Positions 19,595 through 30,434 of a stretch of 31,602 nt of DNA are shown here, piece after piece. Numbering within the stretch: the stretch's first letter is position 1; every line of letters begins with the position of its first letter. The notes under the pieces are model-generated. The model did no database searches and was not told where the DNA came from. It saw only the letters and a list, made by a program, of their open reading frames with translations. The stretch is from a virus. Location of the stretch: positions 1-31,602 of IMG/VR virus record IMGVR_UViG_3300032285_000663. One strand, written 5' to 3'. Position numbers and translations under genes: made by a program.

Positions 19595-19822
19595 ATGAAA
19601 TGCCCGTCCTGTCAGCATATTTTTGCCGTTAGCCTTCGCGAGATCGCGCAGGAGATGGGACGGAAATCTTCACCGGCAAAGGCTGAAACTGCCCGTGCGA
19701 ATGGAAAGCGCGGGGGGAGGCCAAAGAAGACATATGAGCAAAGAACTAATTCCGAGTCAGAAGCAGTCAGCACTCGCGGTAATGGCGTCCAAGTTCAGCG
19801 TGGAGCCGACACGTCTGCTTGA
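19595..19822 (+). CDS. Small CxxC and AT-hook-like protein, 75 aa, overlapping bet
   Basis: ATG 19595 (GTG 19580 is an alternative) lies just after the palindromic site. It has one CPSC pair near the N-terminus (half a zinc ribbon), a helix (VSLREIAQEMGRKSSPAKAE) and a basic NGKRGGRPKK stretch that resembles an AT-hook (core GRP). The last 30 residues overlap the Bet gene by 89 nt and look random, so the functional part probably ends near the Lys-rich stretch. A DNA-binding, perhaps regulatory, role is suggested by the motif and by the operator next to it. Confidence 0.5.
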   Translation: MKCPSCQHIFAVSLREIAQEMGRKSSPAKAETARANGKRGGRPKKTYEQRTNSESEAVSTRGNGVQVQRGADTSA

Positions 19823-20396
19823 TACACTCCGCACAACCCTAATGCCAAAGGCTACCAATGAGGAGCTTTTGGCGTTTGTGGTGGTCGCTAACCAGTACGA
19901 TCTCAACCCGTTCACCAAAGAGATCTACGCCTTCCCCGGTCGCAGTGGTGGAATCACTCCGGTTGTCTCGGTCGATGGCTGGATCAAGCTTATGAATCGC
20001 CACCCACAGTTTGACGGCATTCTGTTCACCACCGACGAGAAAGACGGAAAGACGCACTCAGTCACAGCTACCATCTACCTCAAAAACCGCACCCATCCGG
20101 TAGAGGTCACCGAGTATTTCAGCGAGTGCAGCCGCAACACTGAGCCGTGGAAGGTTAACCCTCGTCGAATGCTGCGACACAAAGCTCTGATCCAATGCGC
20201 TCGCATTGCGTTTGGGTTCTCTGGCATCTCTGACGACGAAGAGGCCATACCGCAAGTCGCTCTCAACATCACTCCGTCTCGGCCCATCTTCCGGTCCAAA
20301 TTGGAGCCGACTGTCGAGCCTCCGGTTGTCATCCCGAGTGTGAGTGTTGAGACCAACGCTCAACCCGTGACCGAGGAAGGAGCGACCAATGAGTGA
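19734..20396 (+). CDS. bet: Bet/RecT-family single-strand annealing protein
   Basis: Anneals complementary single strands in phage recombination, working with an exonuclease. Start set at ATG 19734 (MSKELIPSQKQS), which has a purine-rich upstream stretch; an upstream in-frame start at 19623 would give a basic nonsense-like N-terminus inside another gene. Diagnostic segment (about residues 40-90): NEELLAFVVVANQYDLNPF followed by TKEIYAFPGRSGGITPVVSV and DGWI. Later SVTATIYLKNR, EYFSECSRNTEPW and MLRHKALIQCARIAFG are also typical of phage recombination protein Bet. The C-terminus is a Pro/Val/Glu-rich tail. It overlaps the nuclease gene by 8 nt (ATGAGTGA), the usual Red-type pairing. Confidence 0.92.
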   Translation: MSKELIPSQKQSALAVMASKFSVEPTRLLDTLRTTLMPKATNEELLAFVVVANQYDLNPFTKEIYAFPGRSGGITPVVSVDGWIKLMNRHPQFDGILFTTDEKDGKTHSVTATIYLKNRTHPVEVTEYFSECSRNTEPWKVNPRRMLRHKALIQCARIAFGFSGISDDEEAIPQVALNITPSRPIFRSKLEPTVEPPVVIPSVSVETNAQPVTEEGATNE

Positions 20397-21489
20397 CGAA
20401 CGCTTAGGGTTGCCGTCCGCATCGTCTGCGAGCCGATACGCTGCTTGTCTTGGAAGCTGGCAGTTGGAGAAGCAGATCGCAGAAGGTGCAGCGACGCACG
20501 ATGCGACCATTGGGAACCGTATCCACTCCGCTCTTGCGATGGAGCCGGTGGAGAATCTGACATCAGACGAGACTTGGACCATTGATCGCTGCCGAGAGCA
20601 GGAACTGGAGTTGGTCAAAGCGACGTTTCCAAAAGCCACCGAAGAGCCGAATGTGTGGCGCGAGAAGCGTTTGTGGTCCATCGACGACCGTGGAGTTAAG
20701 CTCTGGAGCGGTAAGCCAGACGTTATATACGTTGTAGGCTCTGTTGGGATTATTATTGACTATAAGAGCGGTCGTGGCGCAGTCGAGAACGCTGCCGAGA
20801 ACCTCCAGTTGCGGTGCTTGGTCGCTCTGCTCGACGAGAACTTTGGGTTTACGTTCGACCGCATCACTGTGGCAATCGTGCAGCCTCTTGCAGGACTGCC
20901 GAGTGTCGCAATCTACGAGTCAGCGGATATCCGAAACGCAATCGCTGAGTCTGCCGACCTCATGGAGCAGATCCAGAAGATTGGACATCCTCGCACTCCG
21001 TCCGAGTCCGCTTGCAAGTACTGCAAAGGAAAACCCTATTGTCCTGAAGCGCGTGAGTTGGCCGTCGCTGGTCCGCTGACCAACGCTCCAGAAGGCATAA
21101 CTCCCGACGCTATTGCTGCGACGTTGACCAACCAGACGCTTGGAGCGTTCTTGGACCGTGCAGCGCAAGCGGAAGCAGTGATCGAAGCTTGCCGCACTGA
21201 GGCTCGACGGAGGCTTGCTGAAGGTGAGTCCGTCGATGGCTGGACACTCAGAGAAGGATCGGTGCGCGAATCCGTTACGAATTCCGAAATGGTTGCGTCT
21301 CGGTTCTTGGAACTCGGAAACTACGAGCAGTTGAGTCCCGCAATCACGCTGAACAAAACGAAGCTGAAAGATGCGGTGAAAGCTGCAACCGGAGCCAAAG
21401 GAAAAGAATTGGAAGCGAAGCTGACCGCTCTGCTTGACGGATGTATCGAATCGAAAGCCTCTCAACCCACACTGACCCGAATCAAATGA
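20389..21489 (+). CDS. RecB/Cas4-type PD-(D/E)XK exonuclease with predicted Fe-S cluster (DUF2800-like)
   Basis: Probable partner exonuclease of Bet. It starts with SASSASRYAACLGSWQLEK (Cys20), has a nuclease core with GKPDV (Asp near residue 110) and IIIDYKSGRG (Asp124-Tyr-Lys126), and ends its core with a CKYCKGKPYC cluster (about 209-218). One early Cys plus C-x2-C-x5-C is the layout of AddB/Cas4-type 4Fe-4S nucleases. The last 130 residues are a helical extension (AAQAEAVIEACRTEARRRL). ATG 20389 overlaps bet and is preceded by GGAAGGAG. By analogy with lambda Exo it would resect double-strand ends to load the annealing protein. Confidence 0.85.
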   Translation: MSDERLGLPSASSASRYAACLGSWQLEKQIAEGAATHDATIGNRIHSALAMEPVENLTSDETWTIDRCREQELELVKATFPKATEEPNVWREKRLWSIDDRGVKLWSGKPDVIYVVGSVGIIIDYKSGRGAVENAAENLQLRCLVALLDENFGFTFDRITVAIVQPLAGLPSVAIYESADIRNAIAESADLMEQIQKIGHPRTPSESACKYCKGKPYCPEARELAVAGPLTNAPEGITPDAIAATLTNQTLGAFLDRAAQAEAVIEACRTEARRRLAEGESVDGWTLREGSVRESVTNSEMVASRFLELGNYEQLSPAITLNKTKLKDAVKAATGAKGKELEAKLTALLDGCIESKASQPTLTRIK

Positions 21490-21920: not shown

Positions 21921-22237
21921 GACATTTGTGGGCGCGAGGTTTCGGTAAGTTGTACCGAGACGCAGAACTGATCACCACAGACGACGGCAAGACGTTCCTG
22001 CTGGCTGTTATTGAGTTTGAGCAGCGCACGTTGGGGAACGGCAAACCGTACTCGCAACGGGTCCAGTTCAGGTCATTTGACCGCGACGACATGGAGATCG
22101 TGGACCAGCTAGTCGCTGGCACCTACGTCATGTTCGACGGAGACTGCGATGCGACCGCTGACAAGAGTCCAACCGGCTGGTGGTACGCAAACCCTCGCGT
22201 GACTGGCCGCATCCACGAAATCAGTCATGCATCTTGA
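21917..22237 (+). CDS. OB-fold-like, putative single-stranded DNA-binding protein, 106 aa
   Basis: ATG 21917 in ATGA overlap. Small beta-barrel-like protein: LWARGFGKLYRDAELI, TFLLAVIEFEQ, RVQFRSFDRDDMEIVDQL, then VAGTYVMFDGDCDAT and a final strand PRVTGRIHEI. This five-strand pattern with a connecting helix resembles phage OB-fold SSB-like proteins, and the gene sits between recombination genes. It has no acidic C-terminal tip, unlike the protein at 30510. Its exact role is inferred. Confidence 0.6.
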   Translation: MRHLWARGFGKLYRDAELITTDDGKTFLLAVIEFEQRTLGNGKPYSQRVQFRSFDRDDMEIVDQLVAGTYVMFDGDCDATADKSPTGWWYANPRVTGRIHEISHAS

Positions 22238-22649
22238 TTTCCATGTCAGCGGAATTCCGAAGGCTCAACCCCGAGTCAAAGCGTTCCGCCGTGGAAATCA
22301 CGCTGGAGTCTACACTCCAGATTCAGCCGATGCGTGGAAGCAAGCGGTGCGTCAGGAAGCCGCCGCAAACGCTCCAGAATCGCTTATGACGGGTCCGATT
22401 AGGTTGCAGCTAGACTTCTTCCTTCCGAGACCAAAAGCGCATCTGGACCGACACGGCATCCCGAAGCCGAAATCTCCGGTCTGGCATCCCAAGAAGCCAG
22501 ACTTGGACAACCTTATCAAAGCGGTGACCGATGCGATCACAGACACTCAGCGAGTCTGGCTCGACGACTCGCAGGTCTACCAGATCACAGCTACGAAAAC
22601 CTACGCTCTCCAGCACTCTGGTTGCAGCGTGAGAATTAACGCTGAATAG
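22227..22649 (+). CDS. rusA: RusA-family Holliday junction resolvase
   Basis: 140 aa, normal for RusA. Opening strand HLDFHVSGIPKAQPRVKAFR, middle strand IRLQLDFFLPRPKAH, and the catalytic region KKPDLDNLIKAVTDAI (Asp92, Asp94) followed by VWLDDSQVYQI (Asp113, Asp114) and a Lys-containing strand TATKTYA. These are the metal-binding acidic residues of the family. It cuts four-way junctions made by the Bet/exonuclease pathway or debranches DNA before packaging. It overlaps the previous gene by 11 nt and closes the recombination operon. Confidence 0.93.
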   Translation: MHLDFHVSGIPKAQPRVKAFRRGNHAGVYTPDSADAWKQAVRQEAAANAPESLMTGPIRLQLDFFLPRPKAHLDRHGIPKPKSPVWHPKKPDLDNLIKAVTDAITDTQRVWLDDSQVYQITATKTYALQHSGCSVRINAE

Positions 22650-22862
22650 CCTTCGGAAAGTGCGGCATGGTGCGCGGAGAGAGTCCGCGACGGGTTGGGT
22701 TCACCTCAAGAAACACCGCATTTTCCTAAGGATTTCGCAGGTTTTCGCATAATCTGAAAAAAGATGCGGAAAAATGCATTTTGCTGTTGCAAGTATCCCA
22801 ACGTTGGGTTTAGGGTATCTCCATCGACGGCAATCAAGCCGAAGAAAAACTGAACGAATACG
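22650..22862 (+). promoter_or_regulatory. Regulatory gap with hairpin, palindromes and operator site 2
   Basis: The longest gap (213 nt). Hairpin CGCGGA-GAGAG-TCCGCG at 22673-22689 may end the recombination transcript, though no T-run follows. CCGCAT (22716-22721) is inverted as ATGCGG (22764-22769). CATAAT at 22748-22753 is -10-like. AAAATGCATTTT (22771-22782) is a perfect 12-bp palindrome. CCCAACGTTGGG (22797-22808) is the core of the operator seen at 19562, again 4 nt after a TTG hexamer (TTGCAA, 22787-22792). The region probably holds the promoter and control site for the accessory block. Confidence 0.55.
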
Positions 22863-23078
22863 ATGAACCAAACCAGCGAAATCAAGAACGCCACCGAAAC
22901 CGTCACTGCTTTCTGGGACGATGAAGCTTGCATCACCTGCGGGGCTTATGTTGTCGAGTCCACCGGATGGTGGAGCGAAGACGGTAGAGGTTGGTACGGT
23001 GTCGAGTCTGACGGAGAATTCAAATCGACCCAGATTTTCCTTCTCGGTGGTCCGCTTGATGGGTCATACAGCAAGTAA
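22863..23078 (+). CDS. Small hypothetical protein, 71 aa, with CxxC
   Basis: ATG 22863 is the first gene after the regulatory gap, with leader GAACGAATACG and no SD. It holds a single CITC pair and a Trp/Gly/Asp-rich centre (STGWWSEDGRGWYGVESDGE), ending LLGGPLDGSYSK. Acidic overall. Not recognised. As the first gene of the block it would be expressed early; an early host-directed role is possible but unsupported. Confidence 0.6.
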   Translation: MNQTSEIKNATETVTAFWDDEACITCGAYVVESTGWWSEDGRGWYGVESDGEFKSTQIFLLGGPLDGSYSK

Positions 23079-23108
23079 GGTGAACCATAACTCATACCAT
23101 CAAATACC

Positions 23109-23366
23109 ATGACTAAGGACACAAACATTACGGTTCAACTTCCCACCGAGATTTCCTATTGGGGATCAGATTGTCGCGAGCAAGATGTTGATCGCATCTT
23201 GGGCAACCTCGAAACGATGATTAAAAGAGAGTTTTCGGAAACTCCTTATAGAATACTTTTTGAGCGCACAATGACTCCGATTGGATCTGGAATCCATGGA
23301 GACTGCGAAACGGCGGTTCTTGAGGTAATGGTTTTCATTGAGGAAAATTGGATGAACGCACTTTGA
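23109..23366 (+). CDS. Small hypothetical protein, 85 aa
   Basis: ATG 23109 follows the leader CATCAAATACC, which is repeated before the gene at 23400. Acidic, mixed alpha/beta: DREQ-like N-terminal segment (SYWGSDCREQDVDRILGNLE), a helix and a beta part (CETAVLEVMVFIEENW). No known domain seen. Confidence 0.55.
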   Translation: MTKDTNITVQLPTEISYWGSDCREQDVDRILGNLETMIKREFSETPYRILFERTMTPIGSGIHGDCETAVLEVMVFIEENWMNAL

Positions 23367-23369
23367 ACA

Positions 23370-23402
23370 ATCAACACCCATCAACACCCATCAAATACCA
23401 TG
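23370..23402 (+). repeat. Repeated A/C-rich translation leader
   Basis: CAACACCCAT occurs twice in tandem (within 23372-23391) before CATCAAATACCATGA (23389-23403). The 15-nt CATCAAATACCATGA is identical before the gene at 23109 (23098-23112). It contains no SD. The copy suggests that one gene acquired its start region by duplication of the other, or that the leader itself functions in translation. Confidence 0.5.
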
Positions 23403-23594: not shown

Positions 23595-23920
23595 ATCTGG
23601 GACCTTTGATCGCGGCTCTGATCGCTGTGGAGTCCAACGGAAATGATATGGCAATCGGAGATAATGGTCGAGCCATTGGAGCATTGCAGATCCACAAGAG
23701 TGTTGTGATCGATGCAAACCGCGTCGCTGGCACCAGATACACCCACCAGCAGATGACAAACCGAATTGCGGCTCGTCGAGTTTGCGAGATCTATCTCACG
23801 CACTACGGCAAAGGCTGCACAACAGAGCAGTTGGCTCGCAAATGGAACGGAGGAGGTCCCGCTGGTGATAAGAAAACAGCGACAATTTCTTACTGGAACA
23901 AAGTCAAAAAGTACCTGTGA
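23591..23920 (+). CDS. Lysozyme-like lytic transglycosylase (endolysin candidate), 109 aa
   Basis: Start at ATG 23591 in ATGA overlap; an in-frame upstream GTG at 23483 would run through the previous gene. The N-terminal helix ends at the catalytic Glu (LIAALIAVESNGND, Glu14), followed by the SLT hallmark GDNGRAIGALQIH (about 23-36), then a helix (IAARRVCEIYLTHYG) and the closing KWNGGGPAG motif. This is the compact SLT/goose-lysozyme core that cleaves the glycan strand of peptidoglycan. There is no signal peptide, so it would need the holin to reach the wall. It is far from the holin-like genes at 9964-10316, an unusual split. Confidence 0.85.
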   Translation: MNLGPLIAALIAVESNGNDMAIGDNGRAIGALQIHKSVVIDANRVAGTRYTHQQMTNRIAARRVCEIYLTHYGKGCTTEQLARKWNGGGPAGDKKTATISYWNKVKKYL

Positions 23921-24054
23921 AATCAAAAACCGTATACATAAACGAGACAACGCACGTTCGACTGAAAGAACTGTGCAAACGAGAAGGAATCAAAATGAAC
24001 CATGCAATTGACCGTATCATCCGAGAGTGGATGGATAAGAAGGAGGCGAAATGA
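23917..24054 (+). CDS. Ribbon-helix-helix (Arc/CopG-like) protein, 45 aa
   Basis: GTG 23917 lies in a GTGA overlap with the lysozyme gene; TGA at 24052-24054 overlaps the next ATG. The chain is a strand (KTVYINETT), helix (HVRLKELCKREG), turn (IKMN) and helix (HAIDRIIREWMDKK), the minimal ribbon-helix-helix fold. Such proteins bind palindromic operators as dimers through the strand. It is a good candidate for binding the repeated palindrome at 19562, 22797 and 30435. A purine-rich GAAGGAGG near its end is the SD of the next gene. Confidence 0.6.
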   Translation: MKSKTVYINETTHVRLKELCKREGIKMNHAIDRIIREWMDKKEAK

Positions 24055-24251: not shown

Positions 24252-24469
24252 CCAACCAACCAATCAACGACGGAGGACCGGCGTTTCCGATGGGATATCA
24301 CCCCGGAGGAAACAGGGCTGATCAATTCGGAATGACAATTAGAGACTACTTCGCGGTGGCGGCGTTGCAGGGGTTGTTGGCTGATGGAGGTGGCCCAACT
24401 TGGGACGTTGACGCACAATGTGCATACGCGTTAGCCGACGCAATGATCCGAGCGAGGGAGGCGAAATGA
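24248..24469 (+). CDS. Small conserved phage protein, 73 aa
   Basis: ATG 24248 in ATGA overlap, with GGAGGAATTGAA as SD. The composition NDGGPAFPMG...MTIRDYFAVAALQGLLA...CAYALADAMIRARE matches a short protein I recall from many phages, with the pattern GGPAFP followed by G-MTLRDYFA--AL-G and a final YALADAM helix. Its function is not known. The first part is a loop and the rest two helices. Belongs to the accessory block. Confidence 0.7.
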   Translation: MTNQPINDGGPAFPMGYHPGGNRADQFGMTIRDYFAVAALQGLLADGGGPTWDVDAQCAYALADAMIRAREAK

Positions 24470-24696
24470 ACCATCTTGGTGACACCAACAAAATGGTCAG
24501 CGAGACACCGAGGACGGATAAGGAGGCATTCTTTCCACCTGAGGCAAAGTATAACATTTGCGACGCAGACTTTGCTCGCACATTGGAACGCGAACTAAAT
24601 GCCGCTCAACAACGCATCAAGCGGCTGGAGGAGTTAGTTCAAGGCAGTTTTGATCAATTTGTTTCTATGTTTGGAGAAAGAGTTGATGTTGAATAA
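24466..24696 (+). CDS. Coiled-coil family protein, 76 aa (array member 1)
   Basis: ATG 24466 in ATGA overlap with SD GGGAGGCGAA. Shares the family plan of the array: SETPRTD (about residues 12-18), FARTLERELNAAQQ and RIKRLEEL (about 50-57), a short parallel coiled coil. DNA at 24613-24632 is exactly CGCATCAAGCGGCTGGAGGA. The family has no enzyme motif. Homodimeric or mixed coiled coils between the sister proteins are plausible. Function unknown. Confidence 0.65.
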   Translation: MNHLGDTNKMVSETPRTDKEAFFPPEAKYNICDADFARTLERELNAAQQRIKRLEELVQGSFDQFVSMFGERVDVE

Positions 24697-24697
24697 T

Positions 24698-24913
24698 ATG
24701 AAAAGTGAAATAAATATCAAAGTTACACCCCCACAATTTAGGTGGGCAGTAGAGGACGCACTAGCTCGTTCAGGCTGGCAGAAAACCGGAGCATCCTATG
24801 GAATGGGTTACGCAGACTTGTGGTATCCATTGCTAGGGCCGTCAGCCGACGAATTTATGCCGGAAAAAATAGAAGTAAATCTTCCTGAATTTAGATGGAA
24901 GGACAGCAAATGA
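24698..24913 (+). CDS. Small hypothetical protein, 71 aa, AT-rich
   Basis: Start taken as ATG 24698, right after the stop of the previous gene (ATG 24686 in frame is possible). Sequence KSEINIKVTPPQFRWAVEDA, then GWQKTGASYGMGYADLWYPL and an acidic end. It is visibly richer in A and T than the neighbours (for example AAATAAATATCAAAG), which suggests a separate origin. Its stop overlaps the next ATG. No family recognised. Confidence 0.6.
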   Translation: MKSEINIKVTPPQFRWAVEDALARSGWQKTGASYGMGYADLWYPLLGPSADEFMPEKIEVNLPEFRWKDSK

Positions 24914-25185
24914 ACTTTTACCAAAATCCTGCACCAACACCATTTGTGACTGTTGGTAATACAGGTTTACATCAACCACAATTGCAGCAATCAATAAAAA
25001 GCCATTTATCGCAGGAGCAATACATTGCCGAACTTGAAAACCGTCTCCGCGCTTTGTGGGACAAATACGATGGTGACAGGAATCACTACATGGACCGCAT
25101 CAAGCGGCTGGAGGACAGCGTGTCTTATTGGAACGAACGCTACAACGACCTAAATCATAAGGTTCAAAATCGTGACAACTATTAA
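24910..25185 (+). CDS. Coiled-coil family protein, 91 aa (array member 2)
   Basis: ATG 24910 in ATGA overlap and 6 nt after AAGGA; an in-frame ATG at 24895 lies inside the previous gene. The N-terminal 40 residues (Pro/Gln-rich, AT-rich DNA) are unrelated to the other members, while the C-terminal half has AELENRLRALWDKYDG and DRIKRLEDSVSYWNERY, with DNA 25096-25115 identical to the 20-nt array repeat. This is a chimaera: a foreign head joined to the shared coiled-coil segment. Confidence 0.65.
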   Translation: MNFYQNPAPTPFVTVGNTGLHQPQLQQSIKSHLSQEQYIAELENRLRALWDKYDGDRNHYMDRIKRLEDSVSYWNERYNDLNHKVQNRDNY

Positions 25186-25190
25186 AAAAA

Positions 25191-25218
25191 CCAAAGCCAA
25201 GGAGGCCAAGCCGTGAGC
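25191..25218 (+). repeat. Gene-junction repeat, copy 1
   Basis: A 28-nt junction sequence, CCAAAGCC followed by AAGGAGGCCAAGCCGTGAGC, is identical at 25851-25878 and nearly so at 25648-25672. It carries the SD (AAGGAGG) and the GTG start of the following gene. Here there is no upstream reading frame through it: it lies after the TAA at 25183-25185 and an A7 run, so only the regulatory half of the cassette is kept. Confidence 0.8.
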
Positions 25219-25425
25219 TGCCCGTTCTGCTATTCACCGAAGCGGATCGACAACACTTATGAGTGTTGGAGCTTAGTCGGCGATGACGAGCTTGGACGAT
25301 CTGAACGGTGCCTCAGAAACGAGATTAAACGGCTCAAAGAACGCATCAGCAACTTGGAGGACCTTTCTGATTCAATCGGAGACTGCCTTCAGAAGTTCGG
25401 CAAACAGCTAAGGAGGAAACCATGA
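25213..25425 (+). CDS. Zinc-knuckle and coiled-coil family protein, 70 aa (array member 3)
   Basis: GTG 25213 inside junction repeat 1, 6 nt after the SD. N-terminal CPFC plus later C residues (TYECWS, ERCLRN) could bind zinc; the C-terminal half is a coiled coil (NEIKRLKERISNLEDL) with degenerate copies of the array repeat at 25321-25340 and 25342-25361. The head differs from the other members again. Ends in an ATGA overlap with member 4. Function unknown. Confidence 0.65.
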   Translation: MSCPFCYSPKRIDNTYECWSLVGDDELGRSERCLRNEIKRLKERISNLEDLSDSIGDCLQKFGKQLRRKP

Positions 25426-25670
25426 GCAAATATTACAGTGTCATTCGAGAGGGCAAAGAACGATGGATTTCGATGCCAAACAATGGAGGAGAGCTTGTCC
25501 AATGTCCGTTGGAAATCATGGAAGAACTAAACCGTTTGATTCATCAACGGGACGAAGCCAACGAGCGAATTAAGCGGCTGGAGGAAGCGGGGGATAGACT
25601 GGCAGCATTCACGCCACCATCTGCTGATCGGATAGCACAGTGGAAACAAGCCAAGGAGGCCAAGCCGTGA
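25422..25670 (+). CDS. Coiled-coil family protein, 82 aa (array member 4)
   Basis: ATG 25422 with SD AAGGAGGAAACC. N-terminal half (YYSVIREGKERWISMPNNGG) is unique; then EIMEELNRLIHQRDEANERI and RIKRLEEAGDRLAA, with the array repeat at 25566-25585 (2 mismatches). C-terminus WKQAKEAKP is nearly the same as that of member 5 and is encoded by the junction repeat. Its stop overlaps the GTG of member 5. Confidence 0.65.
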   Translation: MSKYYSVIREGKERWISMPNNGGELVQCPLEIMEELNRLIHQRDEANERIKRLEEAGDRLAAFTPPSADRIAQWKQAKEAKP

Positions 25671-25686
25671 GCGATACACCGAGGAC
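25648..25686 (+). repeat. Gene-junction repeat, copy 2 (39 nt)
   Basis: Identical over 39 nt to 25854-25892. It encodes the end of one protein (KAKEAKP), holds the SD AAGGAGG, the GTGA stop-start overlap and the first codons of the next protein (MSDTPRT). Such exact identity across neighbouring genes whose other parts differ points to recent duplication or recombination at this boundary. Confidence 0.85.
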
Positions 25687-25876
25687 AGACAGAGCTAGGT
25701 TGGACGAACATGATCCAGCAGTAGCGGTAGCCAGCGAGTGTTCAAAACTTGAGCGCGAACTCACAGCGGCAAACCGGCGCATCAAACGGCTGGAGGAGGC
25801 GGGTGATGCACTCGCCAACAATCACAACCCGTTTACGTTTATCGACTGGACCAAAGCCAAGGAGGCCAAGCCGTGA
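25667..25876 (+). CDS. Coiled-coil family protein, 69 aa (array member 5)
   Basis: GTG 25667 in GTGA overlap; an in-frame start at 25640 lies inside member 4. This is the cleanest form of the family: MSDTPRTDRARLDEHDPAVA, then ECSKLERELTAANRRIKRLE and EAGDALA, ending WTKAKEAKP. Array repeat at 25778-25797 with one mismatch. It lies between two copies of the junction repeat and so has the form of a complete cassette. Confidence 0.7.
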   Translation: MSDTPRTDRARLDEHDPAVAVASECSKLERELTAANRRIKRLEEAGDALANNHNPFTFIDWTKAKEAKP

Positions 25877-25892
25877 GCGATACACCGAGGAC
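25851..25892 (+). repeat. Gene-junction repeat, copy 3
   Basis: 25851-25878 equals copy 1 (25191-25218), and 25854-25892 equals copy 2 (25648-25686). It contains the end of member 5, the SD and the first codons of member 6. Copies 2 and 3 are 206 nt apart, one gene length. Confidence 0.85.
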
Positions 25893-26199
25893 TAATGAGC
25901 AGACGTTTGATATTATTGTGAAAAGAGGAGATGCAAAACTTGGATGGATTAACTATCCGGATGGATTGGGTGACTTTGTAGAATCCGACTTCTGCAAACA
26001 ACTAGAACGCGAACTCAACGATGCCATCGAGCGCATCAAAAACTTGGAGGCTGCGCTCTGCACGGTAGAAAACATCGATAAGGCGAACGCCTATCAGGAT
26101 CTTGAGAGTGCCAATGAGCGCATCAAGCGGCTGGAGGATGAAAACGACGCCATGCGAGCGGATCTGATGCTGTGGGAAGAGAAGGAGGGGAAGCTGTGA
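25873..26199 (+). CDS. Coiled-coil family protein, 108 aa, with two repeat segments (array member 6)
   Basis: GTG 25873 in the third junction. Starts MSDTPRTNEQTFDII, then a unique, AT-richer insert (VKRGDAKLGWINYPDGLG), then FCKQLERELNDAIERIKNLE and a second unit ESANERIKRLEDENDAM. The second unit is encoded by an exact copy of the 20-nt repeat (26119-26138), the first by a degenerate copy (26032-26051), so the coiled coil has been internally duplicated. Longest member of the family. Confidence 0.7.
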   Translation: MSDTPRTNEQTFDIIVKRGDAKLGWINYPDGLGDFVESDFCKQLERELNDAIERIKNLEAALCTVENIDKANAYQDLESANERIKRLEDENDAMRADLMLWEEKEGKL

Positions 26200-27093: not shown

Positions 27094-27843
27094 GTGAACA
27101 TCACACAGCACCGTCGCCGAGTCATGGCGGTTGGTTGCAGCCATGGGAACCGAGCCAATCAAGATGCACTCGCTGCGGTCTTGCTCTTCCGAGAGAAATT
27201 CAAACCAGACGAGTTGATTCATCTGGGAGACGCATACGATCTTGCATCATTACGCAGCGGATCACTCCGCGACCCTCAAGACTCGGATCAAGCCGATGAC
27301 TATCTCGACGACATCCAAGAGGGAGCCAAGTTTCTAGACGAGCTTCGACCCACGGTGTTCACGATTGGGAACCATGACGAGCGAGCCAAGAAGTATCTGA
27401 ACCATCACAACGCTGTTGTCCGTGGATTCGCAGAGGCTGTATGGGAACGAATGCTAAAACCAATTGAGAAACACTGCCACACATTCATCAAACACAATGA
27501 CTGCCATGACAGATCGTTTTATCAGTTGGGTGGATTTCGATGGGGACATGGAGTCCTATTTGGTGAGAACTTCTTGCGTGACTCCGCTGAGACTTTTGGC
27601 AATTGCGTTGTGGCTCATGCTCACAGAGCAGGTCAAGCGACTGGTCGAACAATGGGAAATCCACTCGGCTTTTGCGTCGGTACTTTGGCAGACGTTCCTG
27701 CAATGGATTACTCGGGAAAACGACGATCAACCCTAGCATGGTCCCATGGGATTGTGTTTGGTGAATACACCGAAGACTCAGCGCAACTCTACCTCCATCA
27801 ATGGCCTCAGAACGAACAGAATTGGCACCTGCCGAGCTTTTAA
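27094..27843 (+). CDS. Calcineurin-like metallophosphoesterase
   Basis: GTG 27094 (MNITQHRRRVMAVGCSHGN). The family motifs appear in order: C-S-H (residues 15-17) where D-x-H is usual, GD (45-46), GNHDE (92-96), GH (151-152) and AHAH (174-177). The Asp of the first motif is replaced by Cys, which may alter metal binding, yet the other metal ligands are intact. At 249 aa the protein is normal for phage members, whose substrates (nucleic acid, cyclic nucleotide or end processing) are mostly unknown. It begins a replication-proximal operon and overlaps the next gene by 43 nt. Confidence 0.85.
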   Translation: MNITQHRRRVMAVGCSHGNRANQDALAAVLLFREKFKPDELIHLGDAYDLASLRSGSLRDPQDSDQADDYLDDIQEGAKFLDELRPTVFTIGNHDERAKKYLNHHNAVVRGFAEAVWERMLKPIEKHCHTFIKHNDCHDRSFYQLGGFRWGHGVLFGENFLRDSAETFGNCVVAHAHRAGQATGRTMGNPLGFCVGTLADVPAMDYSGKRRSTLAWSHGIVFGEYTEDSAQLYLHQWPQNEQNWHLPSF

Positions 27844-28392: not shown

Positions 28393-29142
28393 ATGATCGT
28401 AGAAACTGACTTCTTAGACCATTGGAAGACGCGACTTCTAGCCCGTCTTCTCAACACCGAAACAGCACCAATCCACGTTCTAAGGCTCTGGTCACATTGC
28501 CAGACCAGAAAGACGAGCCGATTCCCAGAATGGAACTCCGAGATCTTATCCGCTGTTTGCAAGTGGAACGGTGACGCCAGCACATTCTGGAACGCCATGA
28601 TCCAGACATATTGCAGGGTAGAAGACGGATGTCTTGTCGTTCACCAATGGGACGAGGTTAACGCAAGTCTTATTGCCTCTTGGTCAAACGGTGGGAAAGG
28701 GGGAAGACCAAAGAAACCCAGAGATAACCCACGGGTTAACCCAGAAGACGATCAGGTTATCCCACGGGTAACCCACGGGGTAACCGATAGAGAAGAGAAG
28801 ATAGAGAAGATAGAAAAGACAGAGAAGACGAAGGCTCCAAAGTCGCCGTGGGATGTTGGCTTCGGTGTTGAGTTACCAAACAGCTTTCAGACAGAGAACT
28901 GTCTTCAAGCCGTCAAGCTCTGGCTTCAGTACAAATCGGAGCGTAAAGAGGGATACAAGAAGACCGGACTCACAGCATCACTCACTAAGTGGTCCAATGA
29001 GTTTTCTCCTGCTGAGTTCCCATCTGCTGTTGAGAACTCAATCGCTTCTGGTTGGAAGGGAATATTCCCAACTGGAAAGCAGCAACAACAACCACATGCC
29101 AAATCCGTCAACCTCAGCCTCAACATTGCGGACTACCAATGA
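28393..29142 (+). CDS. Replication initiator protein (lambda O / YdaU-type), 249 aa
   Basis: Start set at ATG 28393 (MIVETDFLDHWKTRLLARLL); an in-frame upstream start at 28345 gives an unlikely extension. The N-terminal half is a winged-helix-type domain (VLRLWSHCQT, FPEWNSEILSAVCKWNGD, and the variable end SNGGKGGRPKKP, containing an AT-hook-like GRP). A polar, repeat-coded linker (residues about 113-150) is rich in Asp, Glu and Lys. The C-terminal half (ENCLQAVKLWLQYKSERKEG) would recruit the helicase. The DNA for the linker carries the candidate origin. It overlaps the helicase gene (ATGA) exactly as O-P/DnaB pairs do. Confidence 0.8.
   Translation: MIVETDFLDHWKTRLLARLLNTETAPIHVLRLWSHCQTRKTSRFPEWNSEILSAVCKWNGDASTFWNAMIQTYCRVEDGCLVVHQWDEVNASLIASWSNGGKGGRPKKPRDNPRVNPEDDQVIPRVTHGVTDREEKIEKIEKTEKTKAPKSPWDVGFGVELPNSFQTENCLQAVKLWLQYKSERKEGYKKTGLTASLTKWSNEFSPAEFPSAVENSIASGWKGIFPTGKQQQQPHAKSVNLSLNIADYQ
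28724..28835. repeat. Putative replication origin: iterons and purine tract inside the initiator gene
   Basis: Three copies of CCCACGGG(G)TAACC-type repeats lie at 28728-28741, 28761-28773 and 28772-28785, the last two overlapping by 2 nt. The first includes the palindrome GGGTTAACCC (28733-28742), and half-sites in the other orientation (GGTTATCCC, 28755-28763) lie between. A purine-rich A-rich tract of about 45 nt follows (28788-28832; AGAGAAGAT-like repeats), where melting could start. This matches the layout of the lambda origin, placed inside gene O. Inference; not tested. Confidence 0.6.
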
Positions 29143-30434
29143 ACGATCCTTTTTACGCTATAGACGACGAATTTGCCGTCATCGGTTGTTGCCTCAATGG
29201 TGGGGTTGATACCTGCTCCGATGCATTCGCTGAGATCCAGACCTCAGCGTTTCAGACTGAGACTCTGGCGATGACCTTCGACGTATTGAAGTCACTGGTC
29301 GCTGAGTCCAAACCAATCGCACTTCCCGAAGTCATGCGGGAATGGAAGAAATCCTTCGCTTCAAATCCAGTCCCGTTTGAAGACTGGAACAAAGCGATGG
29401 AAGCTTCTCCGTCACCGGCAAGCTATCCGATGTTTTCCAAAGGGGTTCTTGAAGCCGCTCACCGTCGCCAGCTACGAATCGCTGGAGACCGTCTTTTTCG
29501 GGAGTCCGCTGTCTCCACCCTCAACGTCGATCAAATCGTCTCTAATGCGGAACAGGGGCTTGCCATTGACGCCTCTAAGGAGACGCTCCAACCTGCAAAG
29601 TCAGTTGTCGGTCGATTCATCGACGCAACCCAAGAGCGATTCCAGCGAAAAGGTCAGTTGTCTGGGATCACTTCTGGACTCTATCGGCTGGACCAAATGA
29701 CTGACGGGTTCCAGCTTGGAGAACTGGCGATCCTAGCCGCTCGTCCGTCCATCGGTAAGACCGCCATGGCGATTGCATTTGCTCAAGCAGCGGCTGTTGT
29801 TGGGAAAGTTCCAACCCTGTTCGTTTCGCTGGAGATGTCAGACGAGTCAATCGTCCGCCGCATGGTCTCCACTATCGGGTCAGTACCGATGGGAGACATA
29901 CGCACCGGAAACATGACGGAAGGTGGAATGAAGGCTATGAGCAACGCTTGCTCTCGGATCGCATCCAGTCCTCTCCATTTTGTGTCTGGTTCATCTGTAA
30001 GCAACATCGCAGCAATCACTGCCACCATTCGTCGAGCGGTTCGTAAGTGGGGCGTTAAGTTGGTGTTGATAGACTATCTGCAAAAGATCCACGGCTCAAA
30101 GTCTGCCGAGAAACGAACCTACGAGATCGCCGAAGTAAGCGGACGACTTAAGAGCATTGCCACCGAGTGTAACGTTGCTGTCGTCTCGCTGGCGCAACTC
30201 AACAGAGAGAACGAGAAGGAGAAGGGTCGATCACCTAAGCTCACCGATCTTGCCGACTCTGGACAGATTGAACGAGACGCTGACCTCGTTATGCTTCTGA
30301 ACCGCGACAGATCCGAGAAGTGTGGTGAAGCAATCATCGCCATTGCCAAGCAGCGTGACGGTGAATGCGGAGCCGTTAAGCTCTGGTACGACGGACAGTA
30401 TTGCCGATTTGGAGAGATTGCTCCAGATACCTAA
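29139..30434 (+). CDS. dnaB: Replicative DNA helicase, DnaB family
   Basis: 431 aa from ATG 29139 in ATGA overlap with the initiator gene; upstream in-frame starts extend into that gene. The N-terminal domain (about 1-130) is short. The RecA-like domain has Walker A ARPSIGKT (about 201-208, Lys207), SLEMSDESIVRRM, Walker B LVLIDYLQKI (Asp312), SLAQLNR and the arginine-finger-type segment GQIERDADLVMLLNRD. These are the standard DnaB motifs. The enzyme unwinds DNA at the fork and would be loaded by the initiator encoded just upstream. Confidence 0.95.
   Translation: MNDPFYAIDDEFAVIGCCLNGGVDTCSDAFAEIQTSAFQTETLAMTFDVLKSLVAESKPIALPEVMREWKKSFASNPVPFEDWNKAMEASPSPASYPMFSKGVLEAAHRRQLRIAGDRLFRESAVSTLNVDQIVSNAEQGLAIDASKETLQPAKSVVGRFIDATQERFQRKGQLSGITSGLYRLDQMTDGFQLGELAILAARPSIGKTAMAIAFAQAAAVVGKVPTLFVSLEMSDESIVRRMVSTIGSVPMGDIRTGNMTEGGMKAMSNACSRIASSPLHFVSGSSVSNIAAITATIRRAVRKWGVKLVLIDYLQKIHGSKSAEKRTYEIAEVSGRLKSIATECNVAVVSLAQLNRENEKEKGRSPKLTDLADSGQIERDADLVMLLNRDRSEKCGEAIIAIAKQRDGECGAVKLWYDGQYCRFGEIAPDT

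Follow-up and report, generated by a model that had tools for sequence, protein, structure and literature searches.

The DNA stretch analyzed here (IMG/VR virus record IMGVR_UViG_3300032285_000663; 31,602 bases, referred to as the window) carries at 24.4-26.2 kb an array of small genes, which is flanked by a transglycosylase-like gene and a metallophosphoesterase. Six of these genes (a, c, d, e, f, and g) form one family, and the unrelated gene b sits among them (Table 1). Our results indicate that the family genes are built and rebuilt by homologous exchange at short joints from a shared pool of modules, a reading to which we assign a probability of roughly 0.78. Heads, optional middles, and tails meet at a joint, hereafter J1, with the sequence CGCATCAAGCGGCTGGAG and the peptide RIKRLE. 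A sequence-only reading of the window had described five genes in a row and one more with a common C-terminal coiled coil, a conserved tail combined with variable heads, and had regarded them as a set of small coiled-coil proteins that is modular and diversifying. The last proposal is borne out by the large-scale recombination of heads and tails among relatives. The six members were recovered as well, but their row is interrupted by gene b between a and c. The heads are indeed variable and a coil is predicted; however, the coil is central, with a further variable tail after it, and the tails are not conserved but differ and shuffle too. The SDTPRTD head ascribed to three genes is exact in gene f and reads SETPRTD in gene a and SDTPRTN in gene g. 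The shuffling of the tails, the conservation of the joint at the DNA level, a further joint at the gene boundary, and an annealase and an exonuclease of the phage's own go beyond that reading.

Shuffling of modules among relatives

A search with gene f identified 99 related places in viral contigs, and a scan of viral contigs for the exact 20-mer at J1 returned at least 119 stretches. About 340-370 distinct family proteins were obtained from about 190 environmental viral loci, metagenome assemblies throughout, with one to three joints each. Clustering at 65% identity, a threshold that is arbitrary as are all clustering thresholds used here, resulted in 144 head and 129 tail clusters, which occur in 261 distinct head/tail pairs. 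The commonest head pairs with 24 tail types and the commonest tail with 17 head types. Numerous combinations are drawn from a common pool of heads, middles, and tails.

In order to locate the borders of exchange, sites were aligned at the joint and compared pairwise over 60 nt, with thresholds of 0.8 and 0.45 for alike and unlike sequences, respectively. We found 1,123 pairs that were alike upstream only, 552 that were alike downstream only, and 65 that were alike on both sides. Identity falls from about 0.9 to chance level (0.26) at the edges of the 18-mer, a sharp drop that is partly built in because the classes were defined on joint-side windows; the real test is hence a sliding anchor. With this anchor, the one-sided fraction was 0.97 at the joint compared to 0.02-0.06 inside modules (45-54 nt off), and it climbed again at -27, in the LERELNAA stretch, and at about +81, at the gene boundary. 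The switch points coincide with the near-invariant intragenic joint, the LERELNAA stretch just upstream of it, and the gene boundary. Among 575 tail-sharing pairs, 441 were unrelated on both sides of the tail and 17 were alike on both, a pattern in which tails act as cassettes.

The modules of the window recur in other combinations. The head of gene c is joined to a different tail in locus L065, and its tail to different heads in L073, L098, L157, and L326. The head of gene f carries a different tail in L007-L009 and L011, and its tail is linked to 11 head clusters. The middle module of gene g is also present in L023, L104, L125, and L173, and its tail was matched in 102 distinct proteins; heads related to that of gene d occur in L326, L050, L091, L108, and L197. 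Recurring heads comprise SDTPRTDA types, SDTPISDSTPHNVADLGMLCRR, several zinc-ribbon-like CPFC/CPHC heads, and a beta head like that of gene e. The heads of two array genes (L326:4304-4744 and L065:2503-3021) resemble the uncharacterised phrog_21668, which shows that domains known from other phages also enter the pool. One further gene (L020:4472-4735) combines an SDTPKTD head with a weakly helix-turn-helix-like tail, and some products may thus bind DNA.

Conservation of the joint at the DNA level

The 20-mer copies that had been reported in genes a, c, and g (exact), f (one mismatch), and e (two mismatches) were all recovered (Table 1), while shuffled sequences gave no chance copy. Degenerate copies had been placed at 25321, 25342, and 26032, and a repeat search of the window returned copies of this kind at 25339 and 26029; the 20-mer and its variants are positioned as described before. 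Every copy lies in frame on the plus strand, and gene g has two. Samples drawn by the 20-mer favour the 20-mer, and loci collected by protein or by the phosphoesterase were used instead for the codon tests. In the protein-collected loci, exact CGCATCAAGCGGCTGGAG was present at 62% of 103 RIKRLE[ED] sites, compared to 0.14-0.7% expected from codon usage. In the phosphoesterase-collected loci, it was exact at 16 of 37 sites, and 11 more showed a single C to T difference. Among genes with the SDTPISDSTPHN head, codon mismatch was 0.08 at the joint versus 0.32 in the head. This uniformity can be the result of selection on the DNA or of homogenisation by recombination, and the data fit either.

Joint at the gene boundary

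A second joint, J2, lies at gene boundaries. The peptide end KAKEAKP recurs in genes e and f, where its codons are those of the ribosome-binding site that serves the gene after it. Over the final 24 nt the consensus is AAAGCCAAGGAGGCCAAGCCGTGA; it encodes KAKEAKP and the stop, includes AAGGAGG, and has at its end the GTGA with which the following gene starts. Shine-Dalgarno sequence and overlap were both present at 294 of 336 distinct gene ends. The conserved KAKEAKP end therefore arises, in part at least, as a by-product of the ribosome-binding site, and this case cautions against taking such peptides for protein motifs. Because these codons carry a ribosome-binding site and an overlapping start, any tail can precede any head in the coupled operon.

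Near-invariant DNA at a switch point might also mean that J1 is recognised by a dedicated site-specific recombinase or acts as a Chi-like hotspot, and is not simply homology used by an annealase; J1 does contain GCTGGAGG, which is one base off the E. coli Chi sequence GCTGGTGG. In the window, however, GCTGGAGG is found at the five joints only, and nothing points to a genome-wide hotspot word. No integrase or reverse transcriptase was detected among the window proteins scanned, a set that left out some small open reading frames. Moreover, the joints at the gene boundary and in LERELNAA differ from J1 in sequence, which fits plain homology and not a single site. We therefore regard a dedicated site as improbable.

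Because the relatives come as metagenome contigs with a joint that is repeated within and between genomes, short-read assemblers could in principle have fused different genes at the 20-mer and produced combinations that are unreal. The controls argue against this. Anchors that were matched to the joint in length and mismatch tolerance but placed in conserved genes on these contigs gave 19 one-sided versus about 7,500 two-sided pairs, compared to 2,376 versus 78 for the joint anchors. In addition, the joint is shorter than the assembly k-mers in common use, 65-78 diverged pairs retain the same combination, and several combinations are found within the single contig of the window. Chimaeric assembly is thus a very unlikely source of the observed combinations.

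Hypervariability of the locus

Among relatives with a phosphoesterase of 86-98% identity, the flanks were retained in almost every case, at about 80% nucleotide identity. Matches to the array region (24.2-26.2 kb) are confined to 0-3% of these relatives for most tiles and never exceed 9%. The comparison between related phages that had been proposed for the array was possible in 33 relatives with both anchors. The array is almost wholly different among them and the flanks are conserved, and the genes are not fixed-order orthologues. Including the window, the distance from anchor to anchor ranges from 1.0 to 4.4 kb, and the number of family open reading frames in between from 0 to 6. The array is a hypervariable, fixed locus between conserved genes. 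Two other regions, 22800-23400 and 28400-29200, are also poorly conserved (matched in about 10-40% of close relatives), and other variable loci may exist.

Same-cluster modules were not enriched within single arrays (2 head pairs seen versus 3.4 expected); since modules repeat no more often than at random, the arrays are filled from the common pool, and an origin by tandem duplication is not supported. Ordinary paralogy, in which an ancestral coiled-coil gene was duplicated in tandem and the joint is merely a conserved part of the protein, would account for the peptide LERELNAANERIKRLEE common to the genes and for arrays of up to about six genes, but this lack of enrichment, 13 pairs with 100% identical tails and unrelated flanks on both sides, and synonymous codons far more uniform at the joint than in the modules leave it hardly any probability.

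Recombination genes and host of the phage

Genes for a terminase, a portal, a ClpP-like head protease, a tape measure, a DnaB-like helicase, and the metallophosphoesterase are coded in the window. Just upstream of the array, within 19.6-22.6 kb, an annealase, an exonuclease, and a RusA-like resolvase (Table 1) are accompanied by a MazG-like protein. A 45-aa protein (23917-24054) directly preceding the array shows a ParG-like (ribbon-helix-helix) match (E 2.4e-4) and is a candidate regulator. Promoter and terminator predictions did not exceed chance level.

Table 1 Positions of joints, array genes, and selected neighbouring genes in the window
Feature	Position	Strand	Support
J1 of gene a, exact 20-mer	24613..24632	+	
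J1 of gene c, exact 20-mer	25096..25115	+	
J1 of gene e, 2 mismatches	25566..25585	+	
J1 of gene f, 1 mismatch	25778..25797	+	
Degenerate first joint of gene g (RIKNLE)	26029..26051	+	repeat search
J1 of gene g, exact 20-mer	26119..26138	+	
J2 coupler between e and f: KAKEAKP codons, Shine-Dalgarno AAGGAGG and GTGA overlap	25641..25672	+	repeat family D3
J2 coupler between f and g	25847..25878	+	repeat family D3
Gene a: MNHLGDTNKMV-SETPRTD head, LERELNAAQQ-RIKRLEE coil, rare tail	24466..24696	+	
Gene b: outside the family, between a and c	24698..24913	+	
Gene c: Pro/Gln-rich head, ELENRLRALWDKYDG middle, RIKRLED joint, tail SVSYWNERYNDLNHKVQNRDNY	24910..25185	+	
Gene d: CPFC zinc-like head, degenerate joints	25213..25425	+	
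Gene e: head with three beta strands, long helix spanning the joint, further helix in the tail	25422..25670	+	
Gene f: SDTPRTD head, tail AGDALANNHNPFTFIDW-TKAKEAKP	25667..25876	+	
Gene g: SDTPRTN head, middle ALCTVENIDKANAYQDLESANE between two joints, tail ENDAMRADLMLWEEKEGKL	25873..26199	+	
RecT/Bet-like single-strand annealing protein, candidate driver of shuffling	19623..20396	+	phrog_252 E 2.1e-65; PF03837 E 8.8e-28
PD-(D/E)XK exonuclease, likely partner of the annealase	20389..21489	+	phrog_69 E 3.9e-41; PF12705
RusA-like Holliday junction resolvase	22227..22649	+	PF05866 E 3.4e-25
Metallophosphoesterase, conserved downstream anchor for array comparison	27094..27843	+	

The host probably belongs to the Verrucomicrobiota, because portal matches are stronger there (down to E 1e-64 in 388 genomes, compared to only 4e-21 in 398 genomes of Pseudomonadota) and because the Verrucomicrobia phage P8625 gave the best portal E-value among the isolate-phage matches listed. 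P8625 has a layout similar to that of the window phage and a RecT protein; a scan of it for the array revealed a single weak joint-like match and no array genes. The Verrucomicrobiota genomes searched contained no array either, but related heads occurred in a small number of isolated genes. Two of these genes (L398 and L399) combine a TPRTD...FARxLEREL head with larger C-terminal parts and are possible distant kin of the head.

Selection on the modules and properties of the proteins

The ratio of nonsynonymous to synonymous substitution rates (dN/dS) was 0.04-0.33 in 16 of 18 modules, the remaining two being small, little-diverged sets. Judged by these ratios, the modules are under purifying selection at the protein level. 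The sequence-only reading had named a structure prediction without a coiled coil as a refutation, and this was not observed: AlphaFold2 models show a continuous helix across the joint. The model of gene a consists of one helix (residues 25-70). That of gene e (mean predicted local distance difference test score, pLDDT, 80.7) has strands at residues 6-10, 13-19, and 25-29 and helices at 30-63 and 68-79.

The family was found in none of the isolate phages and profile libraries searched. Foldseek with the gene e model gave no PDB or BFVD match at E<=0.001, profile libraries gave only weak coil-type matches to the array proteins, and the PADLOC anti-phage defence profiles gave only weak, partial ones. 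No credible family member was detected in isolate phages by tblastn or in the plasmids searched. Matches of the 20-mer in bacterial genomes were discarded as family members; among the matches listed, they are chance codings, for example in genes of AsnC- and LysR-type helix-turn-helix proteins. A literature search for SDTPRTD found no report.

Comparison with known systems

In integrons, arrays of small, variable cassettes from a pool are assembled at a conserved recombination sequence. The array described here is likewise variable and assembled from a pool at a conserved sequence; in contrast, no integrase was found among the scanned window proteins, and its cassettes are parts of genes and not only whole genes. 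A diversity-generating retroelement is not indicated either, as no reverse transcriptase was present among the scanned proteins and whole modules differ instead of single positions.

Ea22 of lambdoid phages is an early protein that has a central coiled coil between an N-terminal part and a C-terminal domain, the latter varying between phages; its locus adjoins a phage recombination gene (exo), and a repertoire of C-terminal domains has been proposed (PMC7093339, PMC10834534). The array proteins also consist of a head, a coiled coil, and a variable C-terminal part, as seen in the module analysis and the AlphaFold2 models. Ea22 is, however, encoded by one gene per phage and not by an array, and neither an intragenic DNA joint nor a boundary coupler is described for it in the parts of these reports consulted. 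An hmmscan of eight window proteins against Pfam-A did not retrieve the Ea22 family at E<=1, and the array proteins have no Ea22 profile match at this cutoff.

Fragments common to otherwise unrelated phage proteins are known to arise by ongoing shuffling (PMC10684548). This domain mosaicism has been highlighted for receptor-binding proteins, endolysins, and replication proteins and involves aligned fragments of 50 aa or more, whereas pieces of about 15-45 aa are exchanged here at a fixed DNA joint. Closer parallels are the boundary sequences (PMC3029335) and the Rad52-like annealases of temperate phages (PMC3945230), by which mosaics likewise result from annealase-aided exchange at short conserved sequences. 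Compared to the boundary sequences (PMC3029335), the recurrent joint is intragenic here, and the second joint, at each gene boundary, is a ribosome-binding site.

Mechanism and implications

Of the features that define annealase-driven mosaicism, both a phage-encoded annealase and exchange borders at a shared short sequence are found in this system. The RecT/Bet-like annealase and the exonuclease of the phage would join modules where they share short identical stretches, either when phages co-infect a cell or when phage DNA already resides in it. The likely mechanism is thus recombination at short joints driven by the annealase, and exchange at a short shared sequence by phage annealases is established for lambdoid phages (PMC3945230). 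Several points weigh against the proposed rebuilding of genes from a module pool. A recombination event has been seen neither in the laboratory nor in a known parent pair, and the relatives are exclusively metagenome assemblies. At 18-26 nt, the joint falls short of the 30-34 nt that are commonly cited for efficient pairing (PMC3945230); RecT of phi80 has also been tested on a region with a longest perfect stretch of 11 bp (PMC3945230). Furthermore, the heptad phase is not kept between joints, so that a continuous coil through multi-module proteins is not assured and the coil may be short or interrupted.

By analogy with lambda Ea22, the products could be coiled-coil oligomers that display varied heads and tails and act as early accessory proteins on the host, in counter-defence or takeover; we consider this conceivable, at somewhat less than even odds. 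More tentatively still, the standardised intragenic and boundary joints, the latter with a translation signal, might constitute a dedicated combinatorial system of protein assembly, kept for annealase recombination of a population-wide cassette pool and providing each phage with its own host-directed coiled-coil set.

Short conserved boundary sequences have been proposed as a partial source of mosaicism, yet are absent at most boundaries (PMC3029335). In the case described here, such a sequence is visible hundreds of times, it is intragenic, exchange borders concentrate at it according to a control, and an annealase is encoded in the same genome. With a joint this visible and an annealase at hand, the boundary-sequence idea becomes directly testable in a cross. 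Overall, exchange at these joints illustrates a route by which a phage may make new small proteins by combining parts, and the modules provide an inventory of the parts that make up numerous proteins annotated without function.
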